Source of the DNA: Acidobacteriota bacterium
GTDB taxonomy: Bacteria; Acidobacteriota; Thermoanaerobaculia; Multivoradales; Multivoraceae
Assembly: GCA_003388555.1 (NCBI GenBank)
Contig: QQVD01000037.1
Location: 124,001 to 188,000, forward strand
Direction: 5' to 3'
Length of the DNA: 64,000 bases
Positions 8,252-35,660 of the stretch are shown in pieces; positions within the stretch are counted from its first letter, which is position 1, and every line of letters begins with the position of its first letter. The notes below the pieces were generated by a model. That model was not told where the DNA came from, searched no databases, and saw only the letters and a program-made list of their open reading frames with translations. A program made the translations under genes and the position numbers.

Positions 8252-9088
8252 TCACAGCCCGACACTCTGGCCGTCGAGCAGCGGCTTCACGACGGGGTCG
8301 CCCGATCGCACGCTCGTCGCCGCCAGGCGATCGAGGAACTCCCCGAGCTCCCGGGCGTCACGCTTCGGATGGTGGTGGACGGGGACGAGATGCGCCGCGC
8401 CGCACTCGCGGGCGAGAGCGTGCACATCCTCCGCGGCACTGTGTCCCAGGACCAGGCCGGGCTCCTCCTCGGCCTCGGCGCGGTCGCACCAGACCTCGTG
8501 CAGCAACCAGGTGGCGCCGGCCGCGAGCTCGCCGGTCGCCGCCTCGCAGGCGGTGTCGGTGACGTAGGCGATGCGGTCGCCGAGACGCATCCCGACCGAG
8601 CCTCCGGGATGGCGTTGACGGCGGACCCGGACCTCCAGGCCAGCGACCGAGAAGTCGCCGTCGTAGGGCACGATCTCCACCGGTTGGGGTAGCTGGTCGA
8701 GGCTGGCGGGGAAGAGCGGCGGGGCGATGAGGCGCCGCAACGCTTCGGCCGGCTCCGCGTCGACCAGCGGCGGTGCGGGGGCGAAGATGCGGCAGGGGCG
8801 CCGCCAGACACCCGACAGGTAGGTGAGCCCGACGACGTGGTCGAGATGGTAGTGGCTGAGCACGATATCGAGGCGCTCGACCTCGTCGAGCTGGCGGGCG
8901 ACGTCTGCCTCGCCGAGTCGCGACAGCCCGGTGCCGGCATCGAGCAGCAGCGGCGCACCGTCCAGGTGCAGCAGGAAGCACATGGTCTGGCGGCCGTATG
9001 CCGGATGGAAGCCGCCGCTGCCGAGCACCACGAGCCGGTCCCTGACCGGCAGCTCGTCGCTCCGGCGTGAGGTGGCGTCGAAGCTCAA
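8252..9088 (-). CDS. Metallo-beta-lactamase-fold hydrolase
   Basis: The 278-residue protein contains the MBL metal motif SHYHLDHVVGL (HxHxDH), a second metal segment RIAYVTDTACEA, and the distal histidine in HLVPVHHHP. LLDAGTGLSRLG is typical of the RNase Z/phosphodiesterase-like branch. No ATG precedes the fold; the best start is TTG 9088-9086, which overlaps the TGA of the upstream glycosyltransferase as TTGA, suggesting translational coupling. Family knowledge gives a dinuclear-zinc hydrolase, possibly a phosphodiesterase; the substrate is unknown. It has no signal peptide and is probably cytoplasmic. Confidence 0.85.
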   Translation of the reverse strand: MSFDATSRRSDELPVRDRLVVLGSGGFHPAYGRQTMCFLLHLDGAPLLLDAGTGLSRLGEADVARQLDEVERLDIVLSHYHLDHVVGLTYLSGVWRRPCRIFAPAPPLVDAEPAEALRRLIAPPLFPASLDQLPQPVEIVPYDGDFSVAGLEVRVRRQRHPGGSVGMRLGDRIAYVTDTACEAATGELAAGATWLLHEVWCDRAEAEEEPGLVLGHSAAEDVHALARECGAAHLVPVHHHPKRDARELGEFLDRLAATSVRSGDPVVKPLLDGQSVGL

Positions 9089-11499
9089 TCGCCCGCCCCG
9101 GGAGCCGTCGGTTCCTGCCCTGGCTCCGCGACGTCCGTCTGGCGAGCCGCCACCGTCACCGTCACTTCGCTGCGGTGGGTCTGGCCGCCGTTGCGCTCGG
9201 CGAACCAGCTGACGTACTCGCGCACCAGGTCGAGCTCGAGCAGGTAGACCCCGGGGCGGCTCGGCGCCCTGACCGGCAGCTCGACGCGGCCCGACTCGCC
9301 GGGCGCCAGCGGTGGCGCCGGTGCGCGCAGCCCGTCGAAGTCGACCGCCGTCCCGTCGGTCTCGAGCCAGTGCGACGAGAGGTTGATCTCGGCCACGCCG
9401 CGAGCCGTCCAGGCGGCCCGGGAGCGATTCGTGATCTCTGCCGTCACCACGAAGCGTTCGCCGCGGCCCACCGTGGCCGGCGCCGTCACCTGGTCCCAGG
9501 AGAGCTGGTAGATGTCGCTCGCCACCTCGTCGCTCGGGCCGAGGAGTCTCAGCGCGACGCCGCCGTAGAACGACTCCGAGACCTGACGGTCGAAGCGGAA
9601 CGAATCGCAGGGCCAGGGCGGGAAGTACCGCGTCCAGTGCACCATCCCGCCACGGTCGCTGCGCACCTCGAGCTCGTAGACGTAGGCCGCAGGTCCCACC
9701 ACCAGGTGGCGTCGCGCGGCGCGGCGTGGCTCGAGCTCGACGGTGCGTGCCTCGCCCTCGGTGAGCTGCAGCGTCTCGCGGTCTCCGCCGAGCGAGATCT
9801 CGACCGTGCTGTCGGGCGCCTGTCCGACCAGCTGCACCGAGTAGCGATCCAGGGGCTCGCGTGCCAGGAGCAGCACCCGCACCGGTACGCGCGCCGCCGC
9901 CACCAGCTCGTGGCCGCGCCGCACCACCTGATCGGCGCGCGCGATCCAGCGCAGCTCGCCGGGCTCGCCGAGGTTCTCGCTGTGGTAGCCGGGTACGTTC
10001 TTGAGCGTCAGCTCGAGCGGGAAGTGGCGCAGGGGCCAGTTGCGGGTGTGTGCCTGCAGCGTCGCCTCGGGCACGGTGATACCGAAGGGTGTGAGCAGCA
10101 GCGGCCCGATCACCAGGCCGGTCCAGGCGCTGGTGGCGAGCAGCGTCCAGGTCGGGCGCAGGTCGCGGACCAGGAAGATCAGCGCCGGCACCGCGTTGAC
10201 GAAGTAGCGGTTGCCGACGAAGCCGCCGCCGCCCTGCCAGTTCCATCCGATGTAGAGCAGGAAGTAGATGGCGATCATGGCCACCGAGCCGAGCAGCCAC
10301 CAGCGTGCCGCGTCGGCGCCGCGGCCGCGGCGCAGGAAGAGCAGCACGGCGAGCACCGCCCAGGGGAAGTAGTGCACGAGCCCGGTGTGCCGGCCCCACA
10401 GGAAGTAGCCGAGGTTCTCGAGCCAGCGTCCGGGCTCGAGCTCGGGCACCCGCAGCAGCCAGTAGAAGGAGCGGTTCTCGGGATCCGCTGCGGCATCAGC
10501 GTCGGCCTCGGCCTCGGCGGCGCTCGCCTCGGCGATCGCGGCCGGCGTCGACGACACGGCAGCGGTGGCGACGGTCTCGGTCCACCCAGCCGGGCGCGGC
10601 ACCTCTCCGGGCTCGCAGACGCGCACGCCCTGACGCCCGGCGACGCCGTAGGCGGAGGCGTGACCGGTGAGCAGGAGCGATCCGGCGACGAGCAGGGCGA
10701 TGGTGATGGCGCCGCCGCCTGCCGTCAGCGCCGCCGGCCGGAGGCGCTCGATCAGGCTCGGCGCACGCTCTCCGACGCGATCGCCGCCGTTGCCGCCGCC
10801 GCTCGCCTCGTGCCCTCGCCGCAGCAGCGGCGGCAGTACCACGGGCAGGGCCAGCGCGACGAGCATCGGCTTGTTGTAGACCGGCAGGGCCAGCGCGCAG
10901 CCGCTGGCGAAGAGGGCCAGAGCACCCGGAGCCCGGTCCTTCCGCCACGGAAAGCCGAGGTAGAGGGCCAGGGTGACGAAGAACATGTTGAACACTTCCG
11001 GCTGCAGCCAGAAGGCGTAGACGCTGCAGGCGCTGAGGCCGAAGAAGCCGGCCGAGAAGAAGAGCGCCAGCGGGCCGGGGTCGTGCTCGGCGATGACCCG
11101 CCAGCCGATGCCCACCATCAGCCAGAGCATCAGCAGGTTGGCGCAGAGCAGCCCGTTGCTGCCGAAGAGCCGGGCGAACGGGGCGACGAAGAGCGGGTAG
11201 ACGTACGGCTTGCCGTAGTGCACCGTGCTCCAGCCGTCGTCGCTGAAGACGATCAGGTTGCTCGTCCAGCGCAGCGGGAACTCGTCGAACAGGCGCCGTG
11301 TGTCATCGGCGCCGACGACGAGGTCGAGATCCCAGGCGAGACTCGACGCCATCATCACGTAGGCGGACTCGTCGGCCTTCAGCCCGCCCGGGACACCCGG
11401 CTTCTGCAGCGCCAGCGGAGTCAGCACCAGGAACAGACCGAACGCCGCGTAGACCCGGCGCGCGATCGAGTGGGAGCTGGCGCGCGCCTCCTCGTGCAT
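9085..11499 (-). CDS. Multi-spanning membrane glycosyltransferase-like protein with a C-terminal beta-sandwich region
   Basis: The 804-residue protein starts at ATG 11499 behind a GGAAGGA ribosome-binding site. Residues about 10-450 hold many hydrophobic spans (AAFGLFLVLTPLALQ, LALYLGF, MIAIYFLLYIGWNW, PALIFLVRDL). The acidic motif KADESAYVMMASSLAWD lies in the first extracytoplasmic loop, as in GT-C enzymes that use lipid-linked sugar donors. The C-terminal 350 residues are soluble and rich in beta strands, with a run resembling an Ig-like domain (GRGERFVVTAEITNRSRAAW, ELPVRAPSRPGVYLLELDLV). Overlap with the MBL gene suggests a two-gene operon. Donor and acceptor are unknown. Confidence 0.75.
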   Translation of the reverse strand: MHEEARASSHSIARRVYAAFGLFLVLTPLALQKPGVPGGLKADESAYVMMASSLAWDLDLVVGADDTRRLFDEFPLRWTSNLIVFSDDGWSTVHYGKPYVYPLFVAPFARLFGSNGLLCANLLMLWLMVGIGWRVIAEHDPGPLALFFSAGFFGLSACSVYAFWLQPEVFNMFFVTLALYLGFPWRKDRAPGALALFASGCALALPVYNKPMLVALALPVVLPPLLRRGHEASGGGNGGDRVGERAPSLIERLRPAALTAGGGAITIALLVAGSLLLTGHASAYGVAGRQGVRVCEPGEVPRPAGWTETVATAAVSSTPAAIAEASAAEAEADADAAADPENRSFYWLLRVPELEPGRWLENLGYFLWGRHTGLVHYFPWAVLAVLLFLRRGRGADAARWWLLGSVAMIAIYFLLYIGWNWQGGGGFVGNRYFVNAVPALIFLVRDLRPTWTLLATSAWTGLVIGPLLLTPFGITVPEATLQAHTRNWPLRHFPLELTLKNVPGYHSENLGEPGELRWIARADQVVRRGHELVAAARVPVRVLLLAREPLDRYSVQLVGQAPDSTVEISLGGDRETLQLTEGEARTVELEPRRAARRHLVVGPAAYVYELEVRSDRGGMVHWTRYFPPWPCDSFRFDRQVSESFYGGVALRLLGPSDEVASDIYQLSWDQVTAPATVGRGERFVVTAEITNRSRAAWTARGVAEINLSSHWLETDGTAVDFDGLRAPAPPLAPGESGRVELPVRAPSRPGVYLLELDLVREYVSWFAERNGGQTHRSEVTVTVAARQTDVAEPGQEPTAPGAGD

Positions 11500-11735: not shown

Positions 11736-13247
11736 ATGAAGTCTTCAGCACCCACCTCTGGACGTAGCGCGCCGCCGCCGAGGTGGCGGAGCGCGTTGGC
11801 GATGGCGGTCGGCCTCCTGGTCGGCGCCTGCGCCGGCCCGCGGGACGCCGCTGAGGTCGAGTCGGCGTCGCAGTCGCCTGCGCCGCGACACGTGATCCTG
11901 CTCACCGTCGACACCCTGCGCGCCGACCACACCAGCCTGCACGGTTATCCCCGTGCGACGACGCCGTTCCTGCAGCGCCTTGCGACCTCCTCGACGGTGT
12001 TCGATCACGCCATCGTGCAGTGGCCGAAGACGGGGACGTCGTTCGCGTCGATGTTCACCGGTCGCTATCCGGAGAGCACCGGCCTGACCCACAAAGCCGC
12101 CCTGCGCATCCCCGAGGAGCTGCCGACCCTCCCCGAGAGCTTCCGTGGCCGCGGATTCCGCACCGTCGCGGTGGTCTCCAACGCGGTGCTGTCGAAGGAG
12201 CTCGGCTGGGATCGCGGTTTCGACGAGTACGTCGAGACCTGGGCCGGCTCGCAGACCGAGGATCCGGTGGAGTACCGGGCGCTGCTGCACGCCGGCCGTG
12301 TCAACCGGCTGGCGTTCGAGCTGCTCGACCGTCACCGGGACGCCGAGCGTCTCTTCCTCTGGGTGCACTACTCCGACCCGCACGCTCCCTACATCCTGCC
12401 GCCGGAGCGCGACAACCCCTTCCTCGGCGATGAGCTGTTCGAGCAGGCCGAGCCGACACACGTCGACCTCGAGGGCACTTCGGGCAAGGCGATCGGCGAC
12501 GCGACGGACCTGCGCTTCTACCGCGCCCAGTACGACGCCAACGTGCTCGAGGTCGACCGCGCTCTCGAGGCGATGGTCGCTGAGCTCGAGCGCCGCGGGC
12601 TCTGGGCCGACGCGCTCGCGGTGATCACCGCCGACCACGGCGAGAGTCTCGGTGAGCACGATCTCTACTTCGAACACGGACCTCTGCCCTACAACCCGAG
12701 TGCCCGGGTGCCGCTGCTGGTGCACGGCGGTGGGGCGCCGGCCGGCCTCAGAGTCGGCGAAGCGGTCGAGCTGCTCGGACTCGCGGCCACCCTCCAGCGA
12801 GCCGTGCCGCGGCTGCAGCTGGACGGGGCGATGCTGCGCGAGGGTCGGGCCTGGCCGCTGCACCCCGACCCTTCGTCCTCACCGGACGTTTCCGGCGCGG
12901 CGGCGCGGGTCGAGGCGGAGCCGCCTCTCGCCTTCGCTGGCGCCGGTCGCGGCGGGCGGCGCCACTTCCGCAGCGTGCAGGACGCCGTTTGGAAGCTGGT
13001 CTTCACGCCGCCGCGCGACGCCGCACGCAGCCGCCCCGACGACTTCGAGCTCTACGACCTGAAGGCCGATCCGCTCGAGGAGCAGGACGTCCTCGACGCC
13101 CATCCGGATCAGGTGCGTCGCCTGCGTGCCCCTCTGCTGGCGTGGATGGAGCGCACCGCGGCGGTCGCCCCGGCGGCCACCGACGACGACGAGGCGTCGG
13201 ATCCGGAGGCGCTACGGGCGCTGCGCGCCATGGGCTACGTGCAGTAG
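11736..13247 (+). CDS. Sulfatase-fold (alkaline phosphatase superfamily) lipoprotein lacking the formylglycine cysteine
   Basis: ATG 11736 gives a 503-residue precursor with a lipoprotein signal (ALAMAVGLLVGAC). The metal-binding segment ILLTVDTLRADHTS and the distal site VITADHGESLGEH define the sulfatase/alkaline-phosphatase fold. Where a sulfatase has C/S-x-P-x-R, this protein has TGTSFASMFTG, so the aligned nucleophile is threonine and no formylglycine can form. It may therefore be a phosphoesterase, a phosphotransferase or a sulfatase with altered chemistry. The C-terminus ends ALRAMGYVQ, a tail shared with the paralogue at 16254. The gene is divergent from the membrane glycosyltransferase. 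Confidence 0.85.
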   Translation: MKSSAPTSGRSAPPPRWRSALAMAVGLLVGACAGPRDAAEVESASQSPAPRHVILLTVDTLRADHTSLHGYPRATTPFLQRLATSSTVFDHAIVQWPKTGTSFASMFTGRYPESTGLTHKAALRIPEELPTLPESFRGRGFRTVAVVSNAVLSKELGWDRGFDEYVETWAGSQTEDPVEYRALLHAGRVNRLAFELLDRHRDAERLFLWVHYSDPHAPYILPPERDNPFLGDELFEQAEPTHVDLEGTSGKAIGDATDLRFYRAQYDANVLEVDRALEAMVAELERRGLWADALAVITADHGESLGEHDLYFEHGPLPYNPSARVPLLVHGGGAPAGLRVGEAVELLGLAATLQRAVPRLQLDGAMLREGRAWPLHPDPSSSPDVSGAAARVEAEPPLAFAGAGRGGRRHFRSVQDAVWKLVFTPPRDAARSRPDDFELYDLKADPLEEQDVLDAHPDQVRRLRAPLLAWMERTAAVAPAATDDDEASDPEALRALRAMGYVQ

Positions 13248-13250
13248 ATC

Positions 13251-13297
13251 CCGGCGCCCACGACGCGCGCTTTCTCCCGGCGTCGTCCTCGCGCCGG
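13251..13297. terminator. Imperfect hairpin between convergent genes, possible bidirectional terminator
   Basis: CCGGCG (13251-13256) and CGACGC (13261-13266) face GCGTCG (13280-13285) and CGCCGG (13292-13297), forming a two-part stem with an internal loop. It fills the 77-bp space between the sulfatase-like gene and the convergent SGNH hydrolase gene. There is no clear U-run. Confidence 0.4.
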
Positions 13298-13324
13298 CGC
13301 CGACCTGCCGGGTTCGGATCGTAC

Positions 13325-14527
13325 CTACTGGGCGACGCTGCCGAAGGCCGCGGCGAACTCCGCCAGGTCGGCGCCGTCGATGTCGAGGTCACCGTCGAAG
13401 TCGGCGTCGGCGAAGTAGACGGCCTCGTTGCTACGGGCACCGAAGGCTGCGGCGAAGCGGATCAGGTCGAGGCCGTCGACCCGACCGTTGCGGTCGAAGT
13501 CGGCGCGCGGGAAGTCGGTGCCGCGGGTGTAGAAGAGCGAGATCTCGCGGTCGAACGTGTTGGGTGGATCGGAGAGATCCTGGGTCTGCAGCCTCACCCG
13601 CACCGGTCCCTGCAGTCGCTCGGGCGAGTGGCTGAGGGTCACGAAGCGACTGTCGCCTTCCGGCGTCGCCGGCGACTCGACGCCGTTGATCAGCAGCCGC
13701 GTCTGGTCGAGATCGATGCCGTTGCCGAAGTCCCAGACGTCGACCCGGACCGTCTGCTGATTGAGCACCTGGAAGGTGCCGTCGGTCGGATCGGTGGTGC
13801 CGTTGACCGGCGGTGCGCTGTCGATCCCCTGCAGGACATCGGCGAAGGTCTGCGCCATCACGTCGTAACCGGCGGCGTTCGGGTGACCCACGGGATCGCG
13901 TGGGTTCGTCGTCTGCCAGTAGTAGCTGTGGTAGAGCAGGTCGAGGCTGAGGAAGGCCTCGAAGTTGTCGACCAGACGGCGGTCGTCGAAGCCGGCCGCG
14001 TTGCGCAGGCTCTGGTTGAGCTGCTTGGTGGAGTGGTTCTCGGGATCCCTCGTGGCGTTGGGCAGGCGCGGGATGATCGTCGCCTGCACCACCTCCATGC
14101 CGTTGTTCTCGGCGCGGCGAGCGATCTGGCGCAGGTTGAAGAGGGTGTCCTCGGGAGCGAAGCCGCGGGCGACGTCGTTGGTGCCGGCCATCAGCAACAT
14201 CACGTCGCCGCCCTCGAGCAGCACCGCGTTGAGCAGCACCAGCAGCTCGGAGGTGTCCTCGCCCGAGAACCCGCGGTTCTCGACCGTGTCGGGGGCGAGG
14301 ATCTCCGCCAGGCGGATCGGGTACCCCGACTCGGGCCCGAGCGGTGCGTCGTCGCCGACGCCCTCGGTGATCGAGTCGCCGAAGGCGATGTAGCGGGTCT
14401 GGGCCGACACGGAGGCAGCGATGGAGAGGGCGAGGACCGAGAGGGTCAGCGCGACGGGCAGCACCTTTCCCGGTGCGGTGTCGCGCTGCTGCGAGGGGCG
14501 CGGGAGGTTCTGCGGAACGCGGGTCAT
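13325..14527 (-). CDS. Secreted SGNH/GDSL hydrolase with C-terminal dockerin-type EF-hand repeats
   Basis: The 400-residue precursor has a signal peptide (VALTLSVLALSIAASVSAQ) and the SGNH blocks: GDSIT with nucleophile S52, MLLMAGTNDVARG, and DPVGHPNAAGYD with the Asp-His pair. A beta-strand domain follows (about residues 245-340). The C-terminus carries two 22-residue calcium-binding repeats, ADFDRNGRVDGLDLIRFAAA and ADFDGDLDIDGADLAEFAAA, the dockerin type I layout. The family hydrolyses esters of lipids or glycans; the dockerin suggests tethering to a cohesin partner or a stabilising role. The ATG overlaps the upstream stop codon as ATGA. Confidence 0.85.
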   Translation of the reverse strand: MTRVPQNLPRPSQQRDTAPGKVLPVALTLSVLALSIAASVSAQTRYIAFGDSITEGVGDDAPLGPESGYPIRLAEILAPDTVENRGFSGEDTSELLVLLNAVLLEGGDVMLLMAGTNDVARGFAPEDTLFNLRQIARRAENNGMEVVQATIIPRLPNATRDPENHSTKQLNQSLRNAAGFDDRRLVDNFEAFLSLDLLYHSYYWQTTNPRDPVGHPNAAGYDVMAQTFADVLQGIDSAPPVNGTTDPTDGTFQVLNQQTVRVDVWDFGNGIDLDQTRLLINGVESPATPEGDSRFVTLSHSPERLQGPVRVRLQTQDLSDPPNTFDREISLFYTRGTDFPRADFDRNGRVDGLDLIRFAAAFGARSNEAVYFADADFDGDLDIDGADLAEFAAAFGSVAQ

Positions 14528-15696
14528 CTCGGATCCTCCGCCAGCGCTCTCAGCGGCACCCTCATGGTCGCCAGCGGCTCGTTCGCGCCAGGCGGCGCCG
14601 GCCAGGCGAAGACGACGCCGCGACCGGCACCGCGCCCCGATGGGATCACCAGCGGTGCGTCGGAGCGGGCGTCGAGCAGGCGACCGGCACGGATCGGCCG
14701 CGGCGGCTCCTGGGCCCCGGCCGGGACGCGCAGATCGAGCGCCTGCCAGGCCGAAGGAGCGGCCTCGCGCAGCAGCAGGCGGGCCTGGGAGGTGGGGTAG
14801 GCCAGCTCGGTGAAGCGAGGACGCACCGAGCCGGGCGGCCCGATCGCAGCGCTGGGCGAGAAGCGATCGCCGTCGAACGTCGCCGCGACCACCCGGTAGC
14901 TGTCGCCGTCGAAGCTCGACCAGGCGACGATGGCGCGTCCGCCCGGCAGCGCCGCCACGGTGGGCGTGAGATCCGGGGAGTCGTCGTCCGTCGCCACCCG
15001 CGCCGGCTCGCTGAGCTCGCCTGCCGGCGAGGCGACGGAGAAGAAGAGATCGGTGTCGTTGCCGTCGAAGCGGCTCCACACCAGCAGCACCCGGCCGTCG
15101 GTGAGAGTGGCGCCGTCGAGCGCGACCTGACTGCCCGGGCCGCGTCCGACGATCCGTCGCGGCGTCTCGAAGCGTTCGCCGCTCCAGGAGCTCACCCAGA
15201 TCTCCCGGCTGGCGGGGGCGCCGCCCTGTATCCATGCCAGCCCCAACGGCGCCGGCCGCCGCAGCTCGCCTCCCGGCAGCAGGCCTTCGGCGAGCAGGAC
15301 CGGTGAGTGGCGCGCGGCAGAGCCCGGCGGCAGCGGATGCTCGTCGGTGACGCCTTCACCATCGCCGCGCACGACCACGAGGTCCCGCAGCTCGCCGGTG
15401 GCGATCTCGCCGGCGTGGCGCTGGCCGACGATCGTCCACTGCCGCTCGTCGGCATGGAGGTCGAAGGCCTCGGCCAGGGCCAGCGCGGCGAGATCGTGGG
15501 TTCCGGCCGCGGTGACCAGGCGGCGATTCGGGGAATCCCAGTACGTGCTCGCCTCGCCCTTCGCCTGCAGCAGCTGCGCGGCCGAAGTTCCGGTGCCGAC
15601 GATGCAGACGACGAGCGAGACGACGGCGACGTGCCGCGGGCGGCGGGCCTTGGGCGAGGGCCCGATGCGAAGGAAGCGTTCGAGGCGATCGATCAT
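14524..15696 (-). CDS. Exported propeller-like protein of unknown function
   Basis: From ATG 15696 the product has 390 residues with one N-terminal hydrophobic segment (HVAVVSLVVCIVGTGTSAAQ) that is a signal peptide or anchor. The body contains blade-like repeats with a recurring W-S-x-F-D-G core (VLLVWSRFDGNDTDLFFSVA, AIVAWSSFDGDSYRVVAATF), reminiscent of sialidase or BNR propellers but without clear Asp-boxes. It is probably cotranscribed with the SGNH hydrolase, whose ATG overlaps its TGA. No enzymatic motif is visible, so a binding role is only a guess. Confidence 0.65.
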   Translation of the reverse strand: MIDRLERFLRIGPSPKARRPRHVAVVSLVVCIVGTGTSAAQLLQAKGEASTYWDSPNRRLVTAAGTHDLAALALAEAFDLHADERQWTIVGQRHAGEIATGELRDLVVVRGDGEGVTDEHPLPPGSAARHSPVLLAEGLLPGGELRRPAPLGLAWIQGGAPASREIWVSSWSGERFETPRRIVGRGPGSQVALDGATLTDGRVLLVWSRFDGNDTDLFFSVASPAGELSEPARVATDDDSPDLTPTVAALPGGRAIVAWSSFDGDSYRVVAATFDGDRFSPSAAIGPPGSVRPRFTELAYPTSQARLLLREAAPSAWQALDLRVPAGAQEPPRPIRAGRLLDARSDAPLVIPSGRGAGRGVVFAWPAPPGANEPLATMRVPLRALAEDPR

Positions 15697-16253
15697 GGTC
15701 GCTGGGAGGACGAGTGGGTGGGGCGTGGTCGGGCCGGCGGTCGGATCGGCGCCCTTGCGGCAACGACGGCGTGAGGTCCGGGAAAGGCCAGGAAGGATGG
15801 AAGGCCAGGATGGATGGACAGGAAGCACGCGGAGCCCGACTCCGTGCCGCGAGCCCGGCGATTGTGAAACGGTGCCTCCGGGGTGTCAACGAACGCTGGC
15901 GGGTGCGCGCGTCTTGGTCGATCGGCGACGGACCCGTAGGCTCCCGGATGCTGGGACTCCCGGGCGCCGGGTGCGACAGCCCACGGGGGACCTGGTGCCT
16001 CGGGGCTGCTCTACGCCCGGTACCCTGCAGTCGCGACACGTTCGACCTCTCCTGGCCGGCGCTCCCGGCCGTTGTCCCGATCGTCTCGGATCATTCGCCG
16101 ATGCTCGTTCTCACAGCCGATACCTCACTGGCGTGCGACGCCGATCGCGTCGTGCCACCTTCGTCTCACGGACTCCCTGGCGGTGAAGGTCGCCGCCGGT
16201 CACCCGCTCCCTCCGTGTGCCCGCCGAACGCGAGCCCATGCAACCGCCGCCTC
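15697..16253. other. Divergent intergenic region (557 bp)
   Basis: This separates the minus-strand propeller-like gene from the plus-strand second sulfatase-like gene and should hold both promoters. I see no convincing -35/-10 pair. The only structure noted is an imperfect direct repeat of about 16 bp (GGCCAGGAAGGATGGA near 15786 and GGCCAGGATGGATGGA near 15803). If the sulfatase-like start lies upstream of the GTG chosen here, part of the right side would be coding. Confidence 0.5.
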
Positions 16254-17855
16254 GTGGGTGGTCGCGCCGCTCACCGCAGAGGCGCTGCGATACGTGCCGG
16301 CCGGTGGCGGGCGGAGCGGTACCACCTCTGGGTGGTGCTGCTCGCCCTGAGCTCGCTGTCGGTGGCGTGCTCCACGCCCGAGGAGCCCGAACCGCATCGA
16401 GGACCGGTGGTCTTGATCACCGTCGACACCCTGCGGGCCGACGTGGTCGGCGCCCTGGCGCAGGCCGACACGCCGGCAGACCGCCGCGGCCTGACGCCGC
16501 ACCTCGACCGCTTCGCCGCCGAAGCCGACTGGGCCGAGCGCGCCGTCGCGACGTCGAGCTGGACGGTGCCCTCGATGGCCTCGCTGATGACCGGGTTGCA
16601 GCCGTGGAGTCACGGCAGCTGGCACGGCGAAAGGGCGGTGCTGGCCGAGGAGCGACTCACGGTCGCAGAAGTGATGCAGGAGGCGGGCTTCCACACCATC
16701 GGCTTTCGCTCGAACACCTGGCTGCGGCCCCGCTTCGGCTACGCCCAGGGCTTCGACGAGATGTACGACCTCGGCGGTTCCAAGCGGGCGATCGCGGTGC
16801 TCGAGTCGCTCGGTGCGCAGGGTCCCGGCGGGGAGACCGAGGCGGCGGCGCCGACCTTCGTCTGGATCCACGTGCTGCCGCCGCACGCGCCGTACCTGCG
16901 CCACGATCAGTACGCCGAGCGGCTCTCGTCCTCTCCCGATCTCACCGCGCTGCCGCAGCGGGTCACCGCCGCCGACCTCGAGCCCTACCTCGATCCGGGG
17001 AGGCCTCTCGACGAGGCGACGCGGGAGGTGTTCTGGACGCTGTACCGGCTGCACGTGGCGCATTCGGACGAGATCGTCGGTGCCCTGCTCGACGCGCTGC
17101 GCCGCAGCGGCTCCTGGGACGACTCGTGGATCGTCGTCACCTCGGACCACGGAGAGGAGTTCGGCGAAGCGGGCCAGATCGCGCACGGCGGAAACCTCCA
17201 CCGCGTGCTGCTGGAGGTGCCCCTGCTGGTCAAGGCCCCACGCGGCGCCGGCGCGCGCATGGAGCCGCGTCCGGGGGTGTCGAACGCCCGGATCTTCGCC
17301 ACCCTGAGTGAGGCGGTGGGCGTCTCGACGGGCGAAGGAGTTGCCGAGCCCCTCACCGTGGATGTCGCTGCCGGCGCGCTCTCCGAGCTCTATCTCGGCA
17401 ACGGGGACAACCGCTTCTCGCTGGTCGAGGAGGGGCCCGACGGTTCGCTGCGCCAGATCCACTGGCGCTCCCGCTTCGCCCCCGAGGAGCCGGAGTACTT
17501 CGCGGCGCGCGTCGCCAGCCTCGCGGATGCCGCCCTGCCCAGCGGTGAGTCGCCGCAGCAGCTGTTCGACCGGCAAGCTGCCGCCTTCCTGGTCGCTCCG
17601 CCGCTCGCCGGCAACGTCGACGTACCCGTGGTCGAGGTGCGCTCGTGGGTCGGATCGAGCGCTTCGGTTCCGCTTGCCGAGGCGCCGCTCGCCGAGGCTT
17701 CGCGGCGGTTGCGGCGGGCCTGGACGGCGGCCAACGGCGACGACGTGGCGCCTGCCGAGGGCCTCGAGGGAGGCGCCGCGCAGGAGGGGATCGAGCTGCT
17801 GCCGGAGGAGCGCGAGAGGCTGAGGGCACTCGGCTACGTGGTCGGCGGTCGCTAG
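16254..17855 (+). CDS. Second sulfatase-fold (alkaline phosphatase superfamily) lipoprotein lacking the formylglycine cysteine
   Basis: The coding frame contains a lipoprotein signal, WVVLLALSSLSVAC, then the metal motif VVLITVDTLRADVV and the distal site IVVTSDHGEEFGE. The nucleophile region reads SSWTVPSMASLMTG, with threonine in place of cysteine or serine and methionine in place of the arginine of C/S-x-P-x-R, so it cannot be a standard formylglycine sulfatase. GTG 16254 is the last in-frame start that leaves a basic n-region before the signal; no strong ribosome-binding site supports it, so the 5' end is uncertain. The C-terminus ends RLRALGYVVGGR, like the paralogue at 11736. Catalytic activity is unproven. 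Confidence 0.8.
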   Translation: MGGRAAHRRGAAIRAGRWRAERYHLWVVLLALSSLSVACSTPEEPEPHRGPVVLITVDTLRADVVGALAQADTPADRRGLTPHLDRFAAEADWAERAVATSSWTVPSMASLMTGLQPWSHGSWHGERAVLAEERLTVAEVMQEAGFHTIGFRSNTWLRPRFGYAQGFDEMYDLGGSKRAIAVLESLGAQGPGGETEAAAPTFVWIHVLPPHAPYLRHDQYAERLSSSPDLTALPQRVTAADLEPYLDPGRPLDEATREVFWTLYRLHVAHSDEIVGALLDALRRSGSWDDSWIVVTSDHGEEFGEAGQIAHGGNLHRVLLEVPLLVKAPRGAGARMEPRPGVSNARIFATLSEAVGVSTGEGVAEPLTVDVAAGALSELYLGNGDNRFSLVEEGPDGSLRQIHWRSRFAPEEPEYFAARVASLADAALPSGESPQQLFDRQAAAFLVAPPLAGNVDVPVVEVRSWVGSSASVPLAEAPLAEASRRLRRAWTAANGDDVAPAEGLEGGAAQEGIELLPEERERLRALGYVVGGR

Positions 17856-18439: not shown

Positions 18440-19786
18440 ATGAAGCTCTGCAAGACGGCTGCGGCCTGCCTTGGCGTCCTGGCCACGGCCCTCGTCCTCG
18501 CCGCCCCCGCCGCCGCTGGAACGGTCTATGTCGGTCCAGCATTGAACGGCATGGTCGGCGACTCCGACCTCGAGACCCAGCTGGTGGTGTCGAACCCCAC
18601 CTTCTCCCCCCTGACCTTCACCGTCTACGAGATCGCGACCCGCACCGACGGAACGGTGCGGCCTGAGGGGGGCCTGGTGCTCGAGGAGATCGAGGTGGCG
18701 CCTGGGAGCACGATGATCCTCACCGGGTTGACCGACTCGATGGACGGCTCGATGCTCGAGATCACCGCCGACTCCGACCTGGTGATCGGTGCTCGTCTGG
18801 TCGGCGACATGGACGGCGAGGAGGTGCTCGGCGCTCGCGTTCCGGTGGTCTCGTCCGGCAACGCGATCCCCGGCGGCGTGATGCACCACGTGCAGGGGTG
18901 GCGCAACGATCCGGACTCCCACACCGCCTTCGGCATCTTCAATCTCTCCCAGAGCGCCAACCCGTGCGTCATCGACGTGCTCGCCGCGAGCGGCGCACCA
19001 CTGATCCCGCGTACGCTGATCACGCTCGAGCCGCTCTCGCACACCTACTTCGACGACGTGTTGGGGCTGATCGGCATCGACGACGCCCTCGACGTGCGCG
19101 CCCAGATCGACTGCGACCGCTCCTCGTACTCCTACGCGATCGTGCAGACCGCGAGCGGCGACCTGAAGCTCATCGAGCCGTCGCAGACCGGCTCGTCGCT
19201 GTTCACCGCGCCGGGCGCCGAGGAGCCGTGCCCCGACGGGGGTGTCTGCTTCGACCTGCCGACCTTCGTCCCGAGTCCCGGCAACGACATCTTCGTGACC
19301 GACCTCGAAGGGCTGGACCCGTCGGCGATCTACGATCGCGTGCGGGTCTCCTTCGACTTCCTGCACGGTGGCTGGCATCCGGTCAGTGACGGTCTGCACG
19401 GCCTCTTCTGGCTCTACCGCAACGGCACCTGGCGCGGCAACACCTTCGGCTACGTGAACTTCCGCGGGCCGAACCGCAACCTCGTCTCGCAGCTGAGCAA
19501 CGTCGGCCTGCCGGCCGGCGAGACCCGTCGCAGCACACAGTCGATCGTGCTGCAGCCGGGCCAGCTCTACCACGTCGAGTACGAATACAACGGACCCGCT
19601 CGGGTGATGCGCACGGTGGTCACCGACGCAGTCGGCAACGTCCTGGCCGACATGACCGAGACGACGCCGACCAACCGGGTGCCGGTGCAGGACGGGTTCA
19701 CCATCCAGATCGCGCTGCACCGCGAGTTCATCGAGGTGCCGACCTTCGGCTGGGTCTACTCGAACGGCCGCGTCATCTTCGACTGA
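18440..19786 (+). CDS. Exported protein of unknown function
   Basis: The 448-residue protein has a textbook signal peptide (CLGVLATALVLAAPAAAG) and is preceded by AAGGAG. The mature part begins GTVYVGPALNGMVGDSDLET, then a beta-rich segment (QLVVSNPTFSPLTFTVYEIA) typical of extracellular beta-sandwich domains. The region between about residues 265 and 420 (DIFVTDLEGLDPSAIYDRVR, HVEYEYNGPARVMRTVV) resembles a lectin-like or carbohydrate-binding jelly roll, but no catalytic motif is visible. Cysteines are few. I do not recognise the family. It stands alone on the plus strand with long flanking noncoding regions. Confidence 0.75.
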   Translation: MKLCKTAAACLGVLATALVLAAPAAAGTVYVGPALNGMVGDSDLETQLVVSNPTFSPLTFTVYEIATRTDGTVRPEGGLVLEEIEVAPGSTMILTGLTDSMDGSMLEITADSDLVIGARLVGDMDGEEVLGARVPVVSSGNAIPGGVMHHVQGWRNDPDSHTAFGIFNLSQSANPCVIDVLAASGAPLIPRTLITLEPLSHTYFDDVLGLIGIDDALDVRAQIDCDRSSYSYAIVQTASGDLKLIEPSQTGSSLFTAPGAEEPCPDGGVCFDLPTFVPSPGNDIFVTDLEGLDPSAIYDRVRVSFDFLHGGWHPVSDGLHGLFWLYRNGTWRGNTFGYVNFRGPNRNLVSQLSNVGLPAGETRRSTQSIVLQPGQLYHVEYEYNGPARVMRTVVTDAVGNVLADMTETTPTNRVPVQDGFTIQIALHREFIEVPTFGWVYSNGRVIFD

Positions 19787-20353: not shown

Positions 20354-21535
20354 ATGATCCCCACGAAGATCCCCACGAAGACTCCCACGAACAGCCCCAC
20401 GAACGCTGGTCGAAGATCATCTTCCGAACGGCCTGCACGCCGGGCCGATCGGACCCGCACCGCGACGCTGCCTGTGCGGCCCCGCCGCTGCGCACCTCAC
20501 GGTGGTCTCCGGGTCCTGGCGGTGACGCTCGCTGCGGCTCCGGCGGTGGCCCAGAAGATCGGCGTCGGCCAGACCCGCGGCGGCGGCGCGCCCGAGGGGC
20601 CGCCGATCGTCGCCATCCACGCCACGGTCGAAGACATGGCGACCAAGAAGGAGATCGGCATCGTCGAGCGCGGCGGCCACTTCGAGGTGCAGGAGGGCCA
20701 GCAGGTGCGTTTGCGTCTGGTTGCCGAGGCAGCCGGCGACCGTCGCCGCTTTCCGAGCACCCGCTTCGAGGTCAACAGCGAATCGCGGCACATCTACGTC
20801 GACAAGCTGAATCCGGAGGTCGGCGCCGTGATCCTCACCGGCGGGCGGCCGAACAGTCGCGGTGGCGCGGTCCCGGTACAGTACGAGATCCTCGAGAACC
20901 TCAACGTCGGCGACGACCTGCGCACCGGCCGGTTCTACCTCGACATCGTGCCGCAGCGCACCCAGCAGCCGCGGCCCGAGCCGAAGCCGGAGCCGACGCC
21001 GCAGCTCGGCGTGACCCTCTACTCGGACGCCGGCTACCGTGGCGCCAGCACCCGATTCCTCGCCAGCGATCGTGATCTGCACGACGACGCCGTCGGCAAC
21101 GACCGGGTGAGCTCGATCCGGGTCGATCCCGGATGCACGGTGACGGTCTTCGAGCATCCGAACTACGGCGGTGTCGCCAGCACCTTCACCGAGGACGTCT
21201 ACGGCATGGACGGTACCCGGGTCGGCAACGACGCGGTCTCCTCGCTGCGCCTGGAGTGCTCGACCCAGGCCCGTCGCGGGGTGACTCTCTATTCCGACGG
21301 CTACTTCGAGGGCGTCTCGGCGTTCTTCTCCGGCGACGTCGCCAACCTGGGAGCGACCGACTTCGGCAACGACCGCGCCAGCTCGATCCGCGTCGACCAG
21401 GGTTGCGAGGTGACGATCTTCGCCGACGTGGAATTCCGCGGCCGCTACGCGACCTTCCGCGACACCCTGCCGCTGCTCAACGGCACCCCGGTGGGCAACG
21501 ATGCCGTGTCGTCGCTGCGGGTGCGCTGCGACTGA
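20354..21535 (+). CDS. Beta/gamma-crystallin domain protein, secreted, calcium-binding type
   Basis: The C-terminal half holds two crystallin domains of two Greek keys each: key openings VTLYSDAGYRGAS, VFEHPNYGG, VTLYSDGYFEG and IFADVEFRG, closed by NDRVSS, NDAVSS, NDRASS and NDAVSS. These fit the N/D-N/D-x-x-S/T-S calcium clamp of microbial beta/gamma-crystallins. Residues about 70-195 form a separate beta-rich region, joined by a PEPKPEPTP linker. From ATG 20354 the first residues are a four-copy repeat, and a good signal peptide (LRVLAVTLAAAPAVAQ) appears only after about residue 50. GTG 20474 would put that signal at the very N-terminus and may be the true start. Role inferred: extracellular calcium-stabilised protein. 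Confidence 0.85.
   Translation: MIPTKIPTKTPTNSPTNAGRRSSSERPARRADRTRTATLPVRPRRCAPHGGLRVLAVTLAAAPAVAQKIGVGQTRGGGAPEGPPIVAIHATVEDMATKKEIGIVERGGHFEVQEGQQVRLRLVAEAAGDRRRFPSTRFEVNSESRHIYVDKLNPEVGAVILTGGRPNSRGGAVPVQYEILENLNVGDDLRTGRFYLDIVPQRTQQPRPEPKPEPTPQLGVTLYSDAGYRGASTRFLASDRDLHDDAVGNDRVSSIRVDPGCTVTVFEHPNYGGVASTFTEDVYGMDGTRVGNDAVSSLRLECSTQARRGVTLYSDGYFEGVSAFFSGDVANLGATDFGNDRASSIRVDQGCEVTIFADVEFRGRYATFRDTLPLLNGTPVGNDAVSSLRVRCD
20357..20404 (+). repeat. 12-bp tandem repeat, four copies, at the start of the crystallin gene
   Basis: ATCCCCACGAAG is present twice (20357-20368, 20369-20380), followed by ACTCCCACGAAC (20381-20392) and AGCCCCACGAAC (20393-20404). If translated from ATG 20354 it encodes IPTK, IPTK, TPTN, SPTN. 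Confidence 0.9.
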
Positions 21536-22252: not shown

Positions 22253-25200
22253 TCAGCAGCGCGATCGGATCAGCAGCACGGCGGCACCGGCGAGCAGGCC
22301 GCCGAGTGCGAGCAGTGCCCACTGCGACAGGGTCGGGATGCCGACGCCGCGCGTCGCCGGTCCACCCGGATCGACGATCCGCCCGTCGCTTGTGCCGTCG
22401 TGGTCTCCCAGCTCGCCGTCGAGCAGTTCGAAGCTCGCGGCGCCGACCGGTTGGCCGGCCACCGTGGCGCTGCCGAAGGTCGCCGGCAGGCTGTACCAAC
22501 GGGGGTTCGCGTCGCCGGGGACCGGGCCGTACTTGCGGTACTCGAGACTGTCGTCGAGCTCGTCGAAGCCGTGGTAGAGCACCGTGAGGGTCGCCGCGGC
22601 GCATTCGAGCTCGAAGGCGAGAGGAGAGGTGATCTGCAGGAAGGTCGCCTCGAACGCCGCGTCGAGCGGCAGAGATGCCGGGTCGATCGCCGCCACCGCT
22701 GTGTGCTGGCAGCCGCCCGAGAGGCCCCCGCGCGGCCCGACTCCGAGCGCGCTGTCGGGGATCTGCATGGCGGGTGCCGCGAGCTCCGTGCCCTGGAGCG
22801 AGATCAGCGTCAGGTAGTCGCCACCGGATCCGGCTCCGACCGCGGGCAGTGAGGTGACGTCGCTCTGCAGGCTGTCGAGCACGCCGTCGTCGTTGCCGTC
22901 GCCGCCATTGGGCGCCGCGTCCTCGGTGACGTTGTCGACGCCGTCGCCGTCGTCGTCACCGGGCAGGAGAGGCTCGACGGTCAGGGTGCCGAGGCCGACG
23001 CTGGCGCCGAAGTTGGCGCTGCCGCTGTAGCTCGCCTCGATCGTGTAGGGGCCTGGCGGGGTCGCGCCCGGCAGCTGGTAGGAGACGGCGGCGCTGCCCG
23101 TGGTCAGTGGCGCCGAGGTCACTGCCGTGCCGACCGGGGTGGCCCCATCGAGCACCTGGAAGGTCACCGTGCCCTCGTCGACGGTCACCGAGTCGGAGAC
23201 CGTCGCGGTCAGGGTGACGTCGCGGTCGTCGCTGCTGAACGGCGTGGTGACGTCGGGCACCGCGGTCGTGGTGACCACCGAGACCAGTGTCTGGTCGGTC
23301 GCGGTGTCGTTGGCCGCGTTGGTGTCGGTGACCCCGGCGCTGGTGCTCACCGTCGCGGTGTTGCTGAGCGTGCCGCTGGCGGCCGGCGACACCGCGCAGC
23401 CGATGCTGTAGGTCACCGAGCTGCCCGGCGGCATCGTCAGGGTCTCGGCGAGGTCGCCTGCTCCGGCGGCGGTGTTGCCGCTGGCGCCGCCGGCGGCGGC
23501 GCTGGTGAAGGTGCAGGTGAGGTCGGTCGGCAGCACGTCGATCAGCGACACCGCCGGGTCGATGCTCGGCCCGGAGGCGGTCACCACGACGGTGTAGGTC
23601 AGCGCGCCGCCGGAGGAGACCGTGGTCAGGCCGTCGTCCTTGCTCACCCCGACGTCGCTCTGCGGCGTCAGGGTGGCGGTGTCGGTGGCCGAGTCGTTGG
23701 CCGGGTTGGGATCTGAGCCGAGACCCGGGGTGATCGTCGCGGTGTTGACCAAGGAGCCGGTGGCGCCGGGATCGATGTCGCAGACCACCGTGTAGGTCAC
23801 CGTGCCGCTGACCGGGATGTCGAGCGTCTCGGCGAGGTTGCCGGCGCCCGCCGCGGTGTTGCCGCTGGCGCCGCCGGCGGCGACGCTGGAGAAGGTGCAG
23901 GTCAGCTCCGCCGGGAAGAGATCGGTGACGTTGGCTCCGAAGGCGGAGTCGGGACCGTTGTTGCCCGCCACGATGGTGTAGGTGACCTGACCTCCGGGTA
24001 CCGCCGAGGCGACGCCGTCGTCCTTGCTGATCGACAGATCTGTCGTCGCCTGGAGCACGGTGAGCGTGTCGCTCGCCGGACCGCTGTTGCCCGACGACGA
24101 CGTCAGGTCTCCGCTGGTGTTGACCAGCGCTCCGGAGACCGTGGCGGTCACCGTCACGTCGATCGTGCAGCTGGCGCCGGCGGCGACCGTGCCGCCGCTG
24201 AGCGAGATCGTCCCCGATCCCGCGGCAGCGGTCGCCACGCCGCCGCACCCGTTGGCAAGGCTCGGCACCGCCGCGACCACCATGCCGGCCGGCAGGGAGT
24301 CGGTGAACGAGAGCGACGTCGCTGCGAGCACGCTGGCGGAGTTGTCGATGGTGAAGGTCAACATCGAGCTCGTTCCCTGCACGATCGGATCGGGGGCGAA
24401 CGCCTTCGAGAAGAGCGGCGGCGGCTCGATCTCGAGCAGGGCGGTGGCCGGCTCGGCGACCGACAAGCCCTGCACGGTGAGATCGCTCGTGGCGTTGGCG
24501 AACGTCCCGGCGGTGGCGGCGGACGGCACGCTCAGGTCGACCGAGAATGTGCACGAGGCTCCGGCCGCCAGGCTGCCGCCCGAGAAGGTGAGGAAGCCGG
24601 TGCCGGCGAGGCTCGAACCGGCTCCGCACAGGTCGCTCAGCGGTGTGCCGATCGCCGCCAGCCCGGGCAGCACGGCGTTGAGGTCGTCGACGAAGGAGAG
24701 GTCGCTGGCCGGTCCGGCGCCGACGTTCTCGATCGTGAACTCGAGGCTCGCGGTGCCTCCGGCCACGGTGGGGCCGGCGAACTGCTTGCTCAGGAAGAGC
24801 GTCTGCACCTCGAGCTCGTCGCTCGCCGCCGCGCCTCGCACCGCGAGGCCGCCGATCGTGCCGGTGACCTCCGAAGTGGTGTTGAGGTAGGGGCCCGCCG
24901 GCAGAGGTGCAGCAGGCACGTCGAGGGTGAGCCTTATGGTGCAGCTCGCCGCCGCGGCGAGGGAGCCGCCGGCGTAAGCGAAGACTGACGTGGGGAAGCC
25001 GCCGGCCATGCCGCCGCAGTCGTTCTGCGTCGCGCCGGTCGCCACGAGACCGCTGAGGGCGGCGCCGAGGTCGTCCGAGAACGCGAGATCGGCGACCGCA
25101 TCGGTGGCCGACAGGTTGGTGATGACCAGCTCGAGGGTCACCGTGCCGCCGGGCGTCGCCGGGTCGTCGGTGAACTGCTTGGTGATCTGGAGCAGGTTCG

Positions 25201-27790: not shown

Positions 27791-28104
27791 GGGATTCCCC
27801 TTCTGGGTGCCCGGCATCGCCGACGATGCGACGATCCTTTGGCTCGGGATCCGCTCAATCTAGCACTCGGCCCGCCGCCCAACCGCACCGTGGTGGGCGT
27901 TCGGCGTGAGACGAGCGATTCGGTTCTCCGCACCCTCGGTTCTCTGCACCCTCGGGCAAGGGACTCGGTGCGGAACGCCCGAAGGTCCCGACGCGGATCT
28001 CAGGATTCCTGGAGGTTCCTCTGCTGCGTGAATTCCTACCGGCGCTTCGCGACGGACCGCAGGGCGCATTGAACCGGGGCGCTGAGACCGGGCTGCTGTC
28101 GCTC
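27791..28104. other. Upstream region of the giant surface protein gene (314 bp)
   Basis: It lies between two minus-strand genes, downstream of the glycan-cluster methyltransferase and upstream of the adhesin gene, so it should contain the adhesin promoter. The least GC-rich spot is near 27855-27865 (minus-strand TAGATT), but no -35 hexamer sits at a normal distance. I see no hairpin with a U-run. Confidence 0.4.
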
Positions 28105-34764: not shown

Positions 34765-35660
34765 CGATCGATCTCGGGACCCGGGCGGAGAGCCGCCGGG
34801 CGGGACAGGACGCGCTCCGCGAGGCGGAGCTCCTCCGGCGTGCCGACGTGCAGGGGTCGCTCGATCGGCGCCACGCGCACGTCGAGCCCGTCGTCGATCA
34901 GGCGACTCACGAGGTCCGGCAGCTCGAGCTCGCCGCGCGGCGAAGGGACGAGCGCGGCGCAGAGTCGAGCGCTGCCCGCCGGCAGCAGGTAGACGCCACT
35001 GTTGTTCCAGCTCGAGGTGGCCTCGCCGTCGCGGGGTTTCTCGACGATGGCGCGCAGCGTGCCGCTGCGCTCGTCCCAGTGCACCGCCGCTCCCCGTGTG
35101 ACGTCGCCGTGGCGGTCGACGGCGACGACCGCGTCGCAGCCCACGGCGCGGCGCCGGATACGGGCGAGAGCCCCGGCGCCTGGCAGGACGTCGCCGAGCA
35201 GCAGCAGGAAGGCCTCGCCCGAGAGCGCGCTCGCGGCGGAGCCGAGGGCGTGGGCGGTTCCGTGCGCCACCCCGGCGTTCGTCGACAGCGGCGTCGGCTG
35301 CTGGCGCACGGTGTCGACGCGGGGTGGGAGCCGAGCGCGGCGCTGGGCATGGGCCTCCCGCCGCCACGACACGAGTGCCCGCTCGATCTGGTCGCCGAGG
35401 TGGCCGATCACCACCGTGACGTGGAGGAAGCCCGCCTCGTCGAGCGCCTGCAGCTGGCGGTCGAGCATCGCCCTGCCGAGCAGCGGGGTCAGCGCCTTGG
35501 CCCGCTCACGGGACCCGGCGCCCATGCGGGTGCCGCGGCCAGCCGAGAGGATCACCGCCCGCGTCGTCCGGCTCGCGGAGCACGCGCGAGCGCGCGAAGG
35601 CTCGCCGTCGACCGCCTTCGCGCCCTCTCGCTCGCCTTGCCTCTGCTGCGCGCGGCTCAC
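34761..35660 (-). CDS. Sugar nucleotidyltransferase (NTP-transferase fold)
   Basis: RAVILSAGRGTRMGAGSRER carries the GxG-x-R nucleotide motif, KALTPLLGRAMLDRQLQAL the following lysine region, and LLLLGDVLPGAG the metal-binding aspartate. IVEKPRDGEATSSWNNSGVY is the conserved product-binding segment. GTG 35660 yields 299 residues with about 30 low-complexity residues before the nucleotide motif; no closer in-frame start was found. The gene heads the flippase, GT4 and PIG-L run. It probably makes the activated sugar used by this cluster. Confidence 0.85.
   Translation of the reverse strand: MSRAQQRQGEREGAKAVDGEPSRARACSASRTTRAVILSAGRGTRMGAGSRERAKALTPLLGRAMLDRQLQALDEAGFLHVTVVIGHLGDQIERALVSWRREAHAQRRARLPPRVDTVRQQPTPLSTNAGVAHGTAHALGSAASALSGEAFLLLLGDVLPGAGALARIRRRAVGCDAVVAVDRHGDVTRGAAVHWDERSGTLRAIVEKPRDGEATSSWNNSGVYLLPAGSARLCAALVPSPRGELELPDLVSRLIDDGLDVRVAPIERPLHVGTPEELRLAERVLSRPAALRPGPEIDR

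Follow-up and report, generated by a model that had tools for sequence, protein, structure and literature searches.

Phosphoethanolamine transferases of the EptA/EptB/MCR type and the S1 formylglycine sulfatases are the described enzymes against which the two proteins studied here are best compared. In MCR-1, two zinc ions are bound by Glu246, Thr285, Asp465, and His466 and by His395 and His478, and a disulfide between Cys281 and Cys291 braces the nucleophile helix (PMC5175174). In the formylglycine enzyme EfAS, mutation of Q21, R65, K110, H112, or K324 abolishes or nearly abolishes activity (PMC12421950). A 2016 study noted threonine instead of Cys/Ser in 30 of the 59 seed sequences of the Pfam family PF00884 and did not accept such proteins as sulfatases without experiments (PMC5066984). 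Here, we analyzed a stretch of 64,000 nucleotides from an Acidobacteriota bacterium (family Multivoraceae; assembly GCA_003388555.1, contig QQVD01000037.1, positions 124,001 to 188,000), hereafter called the window, which encodes two such threonine-type (Thr-type) PF00884 proteins, P1 and P2. With a probability of about 0.62, we read them as members of the alkaline phosphatase superfamily that are anchored to lipid outside the cytoplasm and whose substrates are phosphate esters, most likely diesters, rather than sulfate esters. Computational tools supplied the residue identities, predicted fold, phylogeny, tail association, and gene neighborhood on which this reading is based, and from these we infer the lipid anchor, the metal, the phospho-enzyme, the substrate, the direction, and the role of the tail.

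Predicted active-site residues of P1 and P2

The two genes and their predicted functional residues, placed by alignment, are as follows (window coordinates).

11736 to 13247, plus strand: P1, 503 residues, Thr-type PF00884 probable lipoprotein with lipobox Cys32
11910 to 11927, plus strand: P1 DTLRAD (residues 59 to 64), with metal Asp59, Thr60, Arg62, and Asp64
12030 to 12032, plus strand: P1 Thr99, predicted nucleophile, invariant, in TGTSFASMFTG
12381 to 12383, plus strand: P1 His216 (PHAPY), predicted second-metal or phosphate ligand
12633 to 12644, plus strand: P1 Asp300-His301-Gly302-Glu303, predicted metal ligands
12675 to 12677, plus strand: P1 His314, in place of the sulfatase Lys
13221 to 13238, plus strand: P1 C-terminal tail LRAMGY (residues 496 to 501)
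about 16254 to 17855, plus strand: P2, about 533 residues, Thr-type PF00884 probable lipoprotein with lipobox Cys39 and an inferred GTG start
16425 to 16442, plus strand: P2 DTLRAD (residues 58 to 63)
16563 to 16565, plus strand: P2 Thr104, predicted nucleophile, invariant, in TVPSMASLMTG
16884 to 16886, plus strand: P2 His211
17145 to 17156, plus strand: P2 Asp298-His299-Gly300-Glu301
17184 to 17186, plus strand: P2 His311
17820 to 17837, plus strand: P2 C-terminal tail LRALGY (residues 523 to 528)

Both proteins match the PF00884 profile far above its cutoff of 25 bits (P1, 132 bits, E value 3.8e-38; P2, 102.8 bits, E value 2.9e-29). P1 and P2 are distant relatives with 28% identity. They also exceed the cutoff of 23 bits for PF01663 (nucleotide pyrophosphatase/phosphodiesterase), at 47.4 bits for P1 and 42.4 bits for P2, with best stretches that span only part of that profile. 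Taking the GTG at 16254 as the start of P2 gives a signal-peptide-like stretch with the end LSVACS; in P1 and P2 alike, nothing but such a stretch precedes the catalytic domain, with no N-terminal membrane domain, and the lipoboxes, judged by eye, suggest that both proteins are lipid anchored. Cys32 and Cys39 are the sole cysteines of P1 and P2, so that no alternative cysteine is available for conversion to formylglycine, and the best match to a formylglycine-generating enzyme adjoins Cys-type sulfatases on contig C16, away from P1 and P2.

The initial annotation had proposed that both proteins carry threonine at the formylglycine position while keeping the metal-binding aspartates and the DHG motif, and the alignment bears this out: Thr99 and Thr104 occupy the Cys/Ser column of C-x-P-S-R, a predicted helix begins at each (residues 99 to 108 in P1 and 104 to 113 in P2), and DTLRAD and DHG (residues 300 to 302 in P1 and 298 to 300 in P2) are present in both. 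Thr99, His216, Asp300, His301, and His314 are invariant among 50 selected aligned relatives of P1, as is Thr104 among 38 of P2. Thr101 of P1 was considered as the nucleophile, since a gap-free alignment to the Ept-type chain 6bne sets it opposite the second Thr of GTST, and was rejected because residue 99, not residue 101, is invariant in the 50 sequences and begins the predicted helix.

The substitution is neither isolated nor peculiar to these two genes. Four residues after the nucleophile, Phe (P1) or Met (P2) replaces the sulfatase Arg, and in P1 the second metal Asp, the Lys-x-His pair, and the substrate Lys of sulfatases give way to Thr60, Ser148/Asn149, and His314. We extended the comparison to 182 non-redundant domains aligned to one profile, a set skewed toward P1 relatives, and compared 137 Thr-type with 25 Cys-type rows; outside these counts are 10 rows with a gap at the nucleophile, 6 with Ser, 2 with Leu, 1 with Ala, and 1 with Gly. 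Residue 60 (P1 numbering) is Thr, Ala, or Ser in 133/137 Thr-type rows, whereas it is Asp in every Cys-type row (25/25). Residue 103 is Arg in 25/25 Cys-type and 0/137 Thr-type rows, the latter having His, Phe, Met, Val, Leu, Thr, Gln, or Ile, and the Lys of Lys-x-His is mostly replaced by Ser and Asn. Residue 301 is His in 135/137 Thr-type rows, compared to Asn in 21/25 and His in 3/25 Cys-type rows; Glu at residue 303 is found in 128/137 and 0/25 rows, respectively; and residue 314 is His in all 132 non-gap Thr-type rows, compared to Lys or Arg in 14/25 Cys-type rows. The sulfatase-specific residues are thus altered jointly. In the genome to which the window belongs, 33 PF00884 places were located; with split genes counted once and one place below cutoff omitted, they give 24 Thr-type genes, 5 Cys-type genes of the C-x-P/A-S-R form, and 1 gene with Ala. 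The Ala protein (L032, contig C1, about 33870 to 35222) and two relatives with Leu at the nucleophile position (L157 and L109) are candidate pseudoenzymes; L032 and L157 cluster with P2 in a quick tree of 115 rows.

The residues that replace the sulfatase set match phosphoethanolamine transferases at the metal and nucleophile positions. When five Escherichia coli K-12 references (EptA, EptB, AslA, YdeN, and LapC) were added to the alignment, the columns of P1 residues 59, 60, 62, 64, 99, 216, 300, 301, 303, and 314 read E, T, R, E/D, T, H, D, H, E, and H in EptA and EptB; the sulfatases AslA and YdeN lack this set and LapC retains only part of it. By alignment columns rather than coordinate superposition, the metal and nucleophile residues of P1 and P2 also correspond to the zinc ligands of MCR-1. 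The suggestion of the initial annotation that these proteins resemble phosphoethanolamine transferases therefore stands for the active site, comprising an acidic residue, T-x-R, the Thr nucleophile, D-H-G-E, and two His, and fails for family membership: P1 and P2 have Asp (Asp59 in P1) for Glu at the first ligand, have no membrane domain, lack the disulfide cysteines described for MCR-1 (PMC5175174), score 49.7 and 12.3 bits against an NCBIfam cutoff of 500 for phosphoethanolamine transferases, and combine an S1-type fold with an L-x-x-L-G-Y tail. Another protein of the same genome, L023 (contig C51, 26317 to 27240, a stop-to-stop open reading frame [ORF]), is Thr type; about five hydrophobic segments precede its domain and the tail follows it, an EptA-like layout.

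Predicted fold and phylogeny

AlphaFold2 models of P1 (pLDDT 82.8, pTM 0.85) and P2 (pLDDT 72.2, pTM 0.74, with pLDDT below 50 over residues 369 to 475) have S1 sulfatases and phosphonate monoester hydrolases as their nearest folds among the matches listed. The P1 model matches the S1 sulfatase 6hhm with a Z score of 37.8 (root mean square deviation [rmsd] 2.9, 398 residues aligned) and 2vqr with a Z score of 34.4 (rmsd 3.1, 403 aligned), and the P2 model matches 7oz8 with a Z score of 32.2 (rmsd 3.4, 363 aligned). No EptA-like chain was among the 50 matches listed by VIA-align for either protein, which we did not count against kinship. Because of these matches, the architecture of P1 and P2 is, as modeled, sulfatase-like, whereas the residues of their chemistry are Ept-like. 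With the S1 formylglycine sulfatases, they share the PF00884 domain, the overall fold, the first Asp, His216, and Asp300, and differ by Thr for Cys/Ser and by the replaced Arg, Lys-x-His, second Asp, Asn, and Lys. With the phosphonate monoester hydrolases RlPMH and BcPMH and with EfAS/SpAS2, they share the fold and a metal-binding Asp-His rather than Asp-Asn, but EfAS has formylglycine rather than Thr as well as Arg, Lys, and His residues missing in P1 and P2. Phosphonate monoester hydrolases likewise use a formylglycine nucleophile and keep the Arg, Lys, and His residues that P1 and P2 lack.

In a tree of 74 rows, from which the catalytic columns, LapC, and rows more than 42% identical to another were omitted and whose bootstrap had not settled (0.933), all 17 formylglycine-type rows, including AslA and YdeN, form one clade with support of 100/98. 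Outside it lie the 55 Thr-type rows, P1 and P2 among them, together with EptA and EptB, whose exact placement is weakly supported. The quick tree of 115 rows, with 8 rows uncounted, needs two changes between Thr and Cys rather than one and places an open-ended Cys row (L017) among Thr rows. Since the root of the 74-row tree is not fixed, a single origin of formylglycine against a Thr-type background would be one reading of it and not a proof. The wording "threonine in place of formylglycine" in the initial annotation was right about the residue, but the sulfatase decay that it implied is contradicted by the separate lineage in the tree; we rejected the idea of a decayed sulfatase because the catalytic positions are conserved as a different, EptA-like set and because the formylglycine enzymes form a single clade.

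Relatives of P1 are widespread. Matches with E values of 1e-20 or better were found in 31/31 genomes searched (its own included), many of them paralogues, and relatives occur in Acidobacteriota, Myxococcales, Planctomycetota, Hydrogenedentota, Aminicenantes, and others. The haloarchaeon Halovenus has two copies, both Thr type with the tail. One locus, L064 (Acidobacteriota bacterium isolate OFTM27), is identical to the relative in genome G002 over the ORF.

The L-x-x-L-G-Y tail

The GYV tail that the initial annotation had seen in both proteins proved to be part of a feature general among Thr-type genes. In the window genome, L-x-x-L-G-Y follows the catalytic domain in 22/24 Thr-type genes compared to 0/5 Cys-type genes, being C-terminal in 17, internal in 5, and absent from L019 and L022. 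In the wider set, with open-ended ORFs excluded, it is present in 106/127 closed Thr-type ORFs (87 C-terminal, 19 internal) and in 0/23 closed Cys-type ORFs; among the rows left out of the Thr and Cys counts, four with Ser and four with a gap also bear it. The same partition was seen in a phylum sample of 60 genomes (29 new loci, L188 to L216) that was not chosen by P1 and took top-scoring Pfam matches only, with the tail in 11/11 Thr-type, 1/1 Ser-type, and 0/19 Cys-type rows (one Cys-type row being open-ended). Among ORFs less than 60% alike, the tail lies at most 8 residues from the C terminus in 59/79 Thr-type and 0/20 Cys-type ORFs, whereas shuffling the last 40 residues 1,000 times gave a mean of 0.056 and a maximum of 1 Thr-type ORF with the tail, so that the shared tail is not due to chance. 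A six-letter pattern may arise by chance in a long extension, which makes the internal copies weaker evidence than the C-terminal ones.

The Leu, Gly, and Tyr of the tail are at least 90% conserved in the selected P1 alignment, comparable to Asp59, and no Pfam or NCBIfam match among those listed for P1 and P2 covers the tail. In 21 of the 22 window-genome genes, 104 to 165 residues separate it from the end of the Pfam match; the exception, L031, has 258 residues and a partial Pfam match. This regular distance and the internal copies suggest that the tail probably belongs structurally to the catalytic domain; in the P1 model it overlaps a helix (residues 490 to 498) in a block with pLDDT of about 57 to 72. 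A free C-terminal sorting signal is unlikely, since the tail is internal, before tetratricopeptide (TPR) repeats, in 5 of the 22 tailed genes. Those five proteins (L005, L010, L012, L018, and L027) consist of a Thr-type domain, the tail motif, and then the TPR repeats. The active-site tunnel of choline sulfatase is lined by the C-terminal tail of an adjacent subunit, and shortening that tail strongly cuts activity (PMC5870055). By analogy, the L-x-x-L-G-Y tail may pack near an active site, choline sulfatase being a precedent for a functional C-terminal tail and not evidence for this one (PMC5870055).

The tail also crosses Pfam families, as it is found on one of seven PF01663 proteins examined in the window genome (L161, contig C68, 5730 to 6578). 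Further L-x-x-[LM]-G-Y endings on PF01663-type or similar proteins besides L161 were observed in L148 and L150 (at 13.3 to 14.5 kb) and in L153 (13744 to 14499); the nucleophile column has Ser in L161, L148, and L150 and a gap in L153, which is partial.

Gene neighborhood and probable function

The span from P1 to P2 singled out by the initial annotation also contains two minus-strand genes, and further candidates for partners flank it.

9085 to 11499, minus strand: GTC, polytopic GT-C-like glycosyltransferase of 804 residues, divergent to P1
13325 to 14527, minus strand: secreted GDSL/SGNH hydrolase with a sub-threshold C-terminal match to a dockerin-like calcium-binding repeat, a recurrent neighbor
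14524 to 15696, minus strand: p434, no Pfam match, putatively beta-propeller-like by eye
18440 to 19786, plus strand: p448, secreted-looking, no Pfam match, downstream of P2

The window copy of GTC is above no profile cutoff, and its relative in L148 passes that of GT87 (31.8 compared to 25). GTC is divergent to P1 in genomes G000, G019, and G025, and the order P1-SGNH-p434-P2 recurs in G000, G022, and G030; P1, SGNH, p434, and p448 occur together in L064 (G002), and P2, p448, and p434 in G003. In the genus designated g2, P1 is located apart from the partner set, with SGNH, p448, P2, p434, and GTC together in 7/7 fetched P2 loci (L148 to L154). There, a gene of a flippase cluster, one member of which was tested by Pfam and is a polysaccharide flippase, lies about 1 to 2.5 kb from P1 in 5/5 fetched P1 loci (L135 to L139), and a called family-2 glycosyltransferase gene adjoins P1 in 2 of the 5. 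The neighborhood loosely ties P1 and P2 to surface glycan or lipid work. A search for promoter patterns found nothing and was not used. Farther downstream of P2, the window encodes a protein with two beta/gamma-crystallin stretches (20354 to 21535, plus strand) and a 1,854-residue protein with DUF7933 and DUF11 repeats and an IPTL-CTERM motif (22253 to 27817, minus strand).

If P1 and P2 act on phosphate esters as we propose, Asp59, Asp300, and His301 (P1 numbering) would bind a divalent metal by which Thr99 is activated, and the attack of Thr99 on phosphorus would give a phospho-threonine intermediate; His216 and His314 would hold the phosphate, either by themselves or together with a second metal. 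In transfer, a hydroxyl of a surface glycan or lipid would then accept the group from this intermediate; in hydrolysis, water would. Given the conserved partners, a surface glycan or lipid is the likely acceptor or substrate, and the partner genes lead us to favor transfer to a glycan slightly over hydrolysis.

Several observations weigh against this proposal. Catalytic residues alone do not separate transferases from hydrolases; P1 and P2, unlike EptA, have no membrane domain; and their whole-profile similarity is greater to sulfatases than to phosphoethanolamine transferases. The partners adjoin P1 in only 4 (L131 to L134) of 15 fetched loci of P1 relatives from other genomes (L130 to L144), no partner lies beside P2 of G002, G029, G021, and G025 (L146 and L155 to L157), and the gene-by-gene context of Thr-type relatives covers this order only. 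Lipid anchoring is based on lipoboxes judged by eye, the start codon of P2 is putative, and the Ser at position −3 of the P2 lipobox is unusual under the lipobox rule.

The alternative that survives best, which we nonetheless consider unlikely, is that P1 and P2 are pure hydrolases, that is, secreted phosphodiesterases or phosphatases that draw on external phospholipids, nucleotides, or glycans for phosphate or alcohols while the GDSL hydrolase strips acyl groups. Their PF01663 scores, the hydrolases that are their nearest folds among the matches listed, and the recurrence of the GDSL hydrolase as a neighbor agree with such a role, but the membrane glycosyltransferase-like neighbor and the polysaccharide assembly genes near the P1 relatives of genus g2 indicate building rather than scavenging. 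We hold it improbable that they are binding proteins or regulators that retain the fold without catalysis, as was once argued for YejM/LapC (PMC7576196): the nucleophile is lost in some relatives (Ala in L032, Leu in L157 and L109), but the catalytic residues are all intact in P1 and P2, and five are invariant among the 50 selected sequences. Least probable are sulfatases that work without formylglycine and use the threonine directly or through an unusual modification. In favor of this alternative, PF00884 is the family that P1 and P2 match best, their models share the S1 sulfatase fold, and enzymes of the superfamily are promiscuous (PMC12421950). Against it, P1 and P2 have other residues in place of the C-x-P-S-R Arg, the K-x-H pair, the second Asp, and the substrate Lys; the corresponding EfAS mutations abolish or nearly abolish activity (PMC12421950); and an oxidized Thr has been argued to yield a ketone, not formylglycine (PMC5066984).

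P1 and P2 have the Thr nucleophile, DT-x-RAD, DHGE, HG, and the tail by which we define the group in this analysis, and by sequence the Thr-type PF00884 proteins with the tail are a large, largely unstudied family that includes them. The published record already warns against presuming that Thr-type PF00884 proteins are sulfatases (PMC5066984); the excerpt of that paper used here takes a streptococcal TxNxE group as its example and does not mention an EptA-like set of residues or the L-x-x-L-G-Y tail. Our search of the open-access literature found no paper on this tail or on the activity of the group, and no account of the full Ept-like residue set on the sulfatase fold, of the diagnostic tail, or of the conserved gene set. 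Annotation by PF00884 "Sulfatase" would take the 24 Thr-type genes of this genome as signs of a diet rich in sulfate esters. Should they act on phosphate instead, genomes rich in Thr-type genes have inflated sulfatase counts, and a large set of cell-surface phosphate enzymes is hidden. Together, the residue set and the tail provide a simple sequence rule for telling the Thr type from the formylglycine type. Because the formylglycine enzymes form one clade, the direction of evolution can be tested. On a wider scale, it is possible, and we propose it only tentatively, that many bacterial and at least one archaeal "sulfatase" belong to one unrecognized family of phosphotransferases or phosphodiesterases that depend on Thr and work outside the cytoplasm, with a phosphoethanolamine-transferase active site on a sulfatase fold and a diagnostic tail that would complete or gate the active site. 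If so, the formylglycine sulfatases would be a single derived branch.

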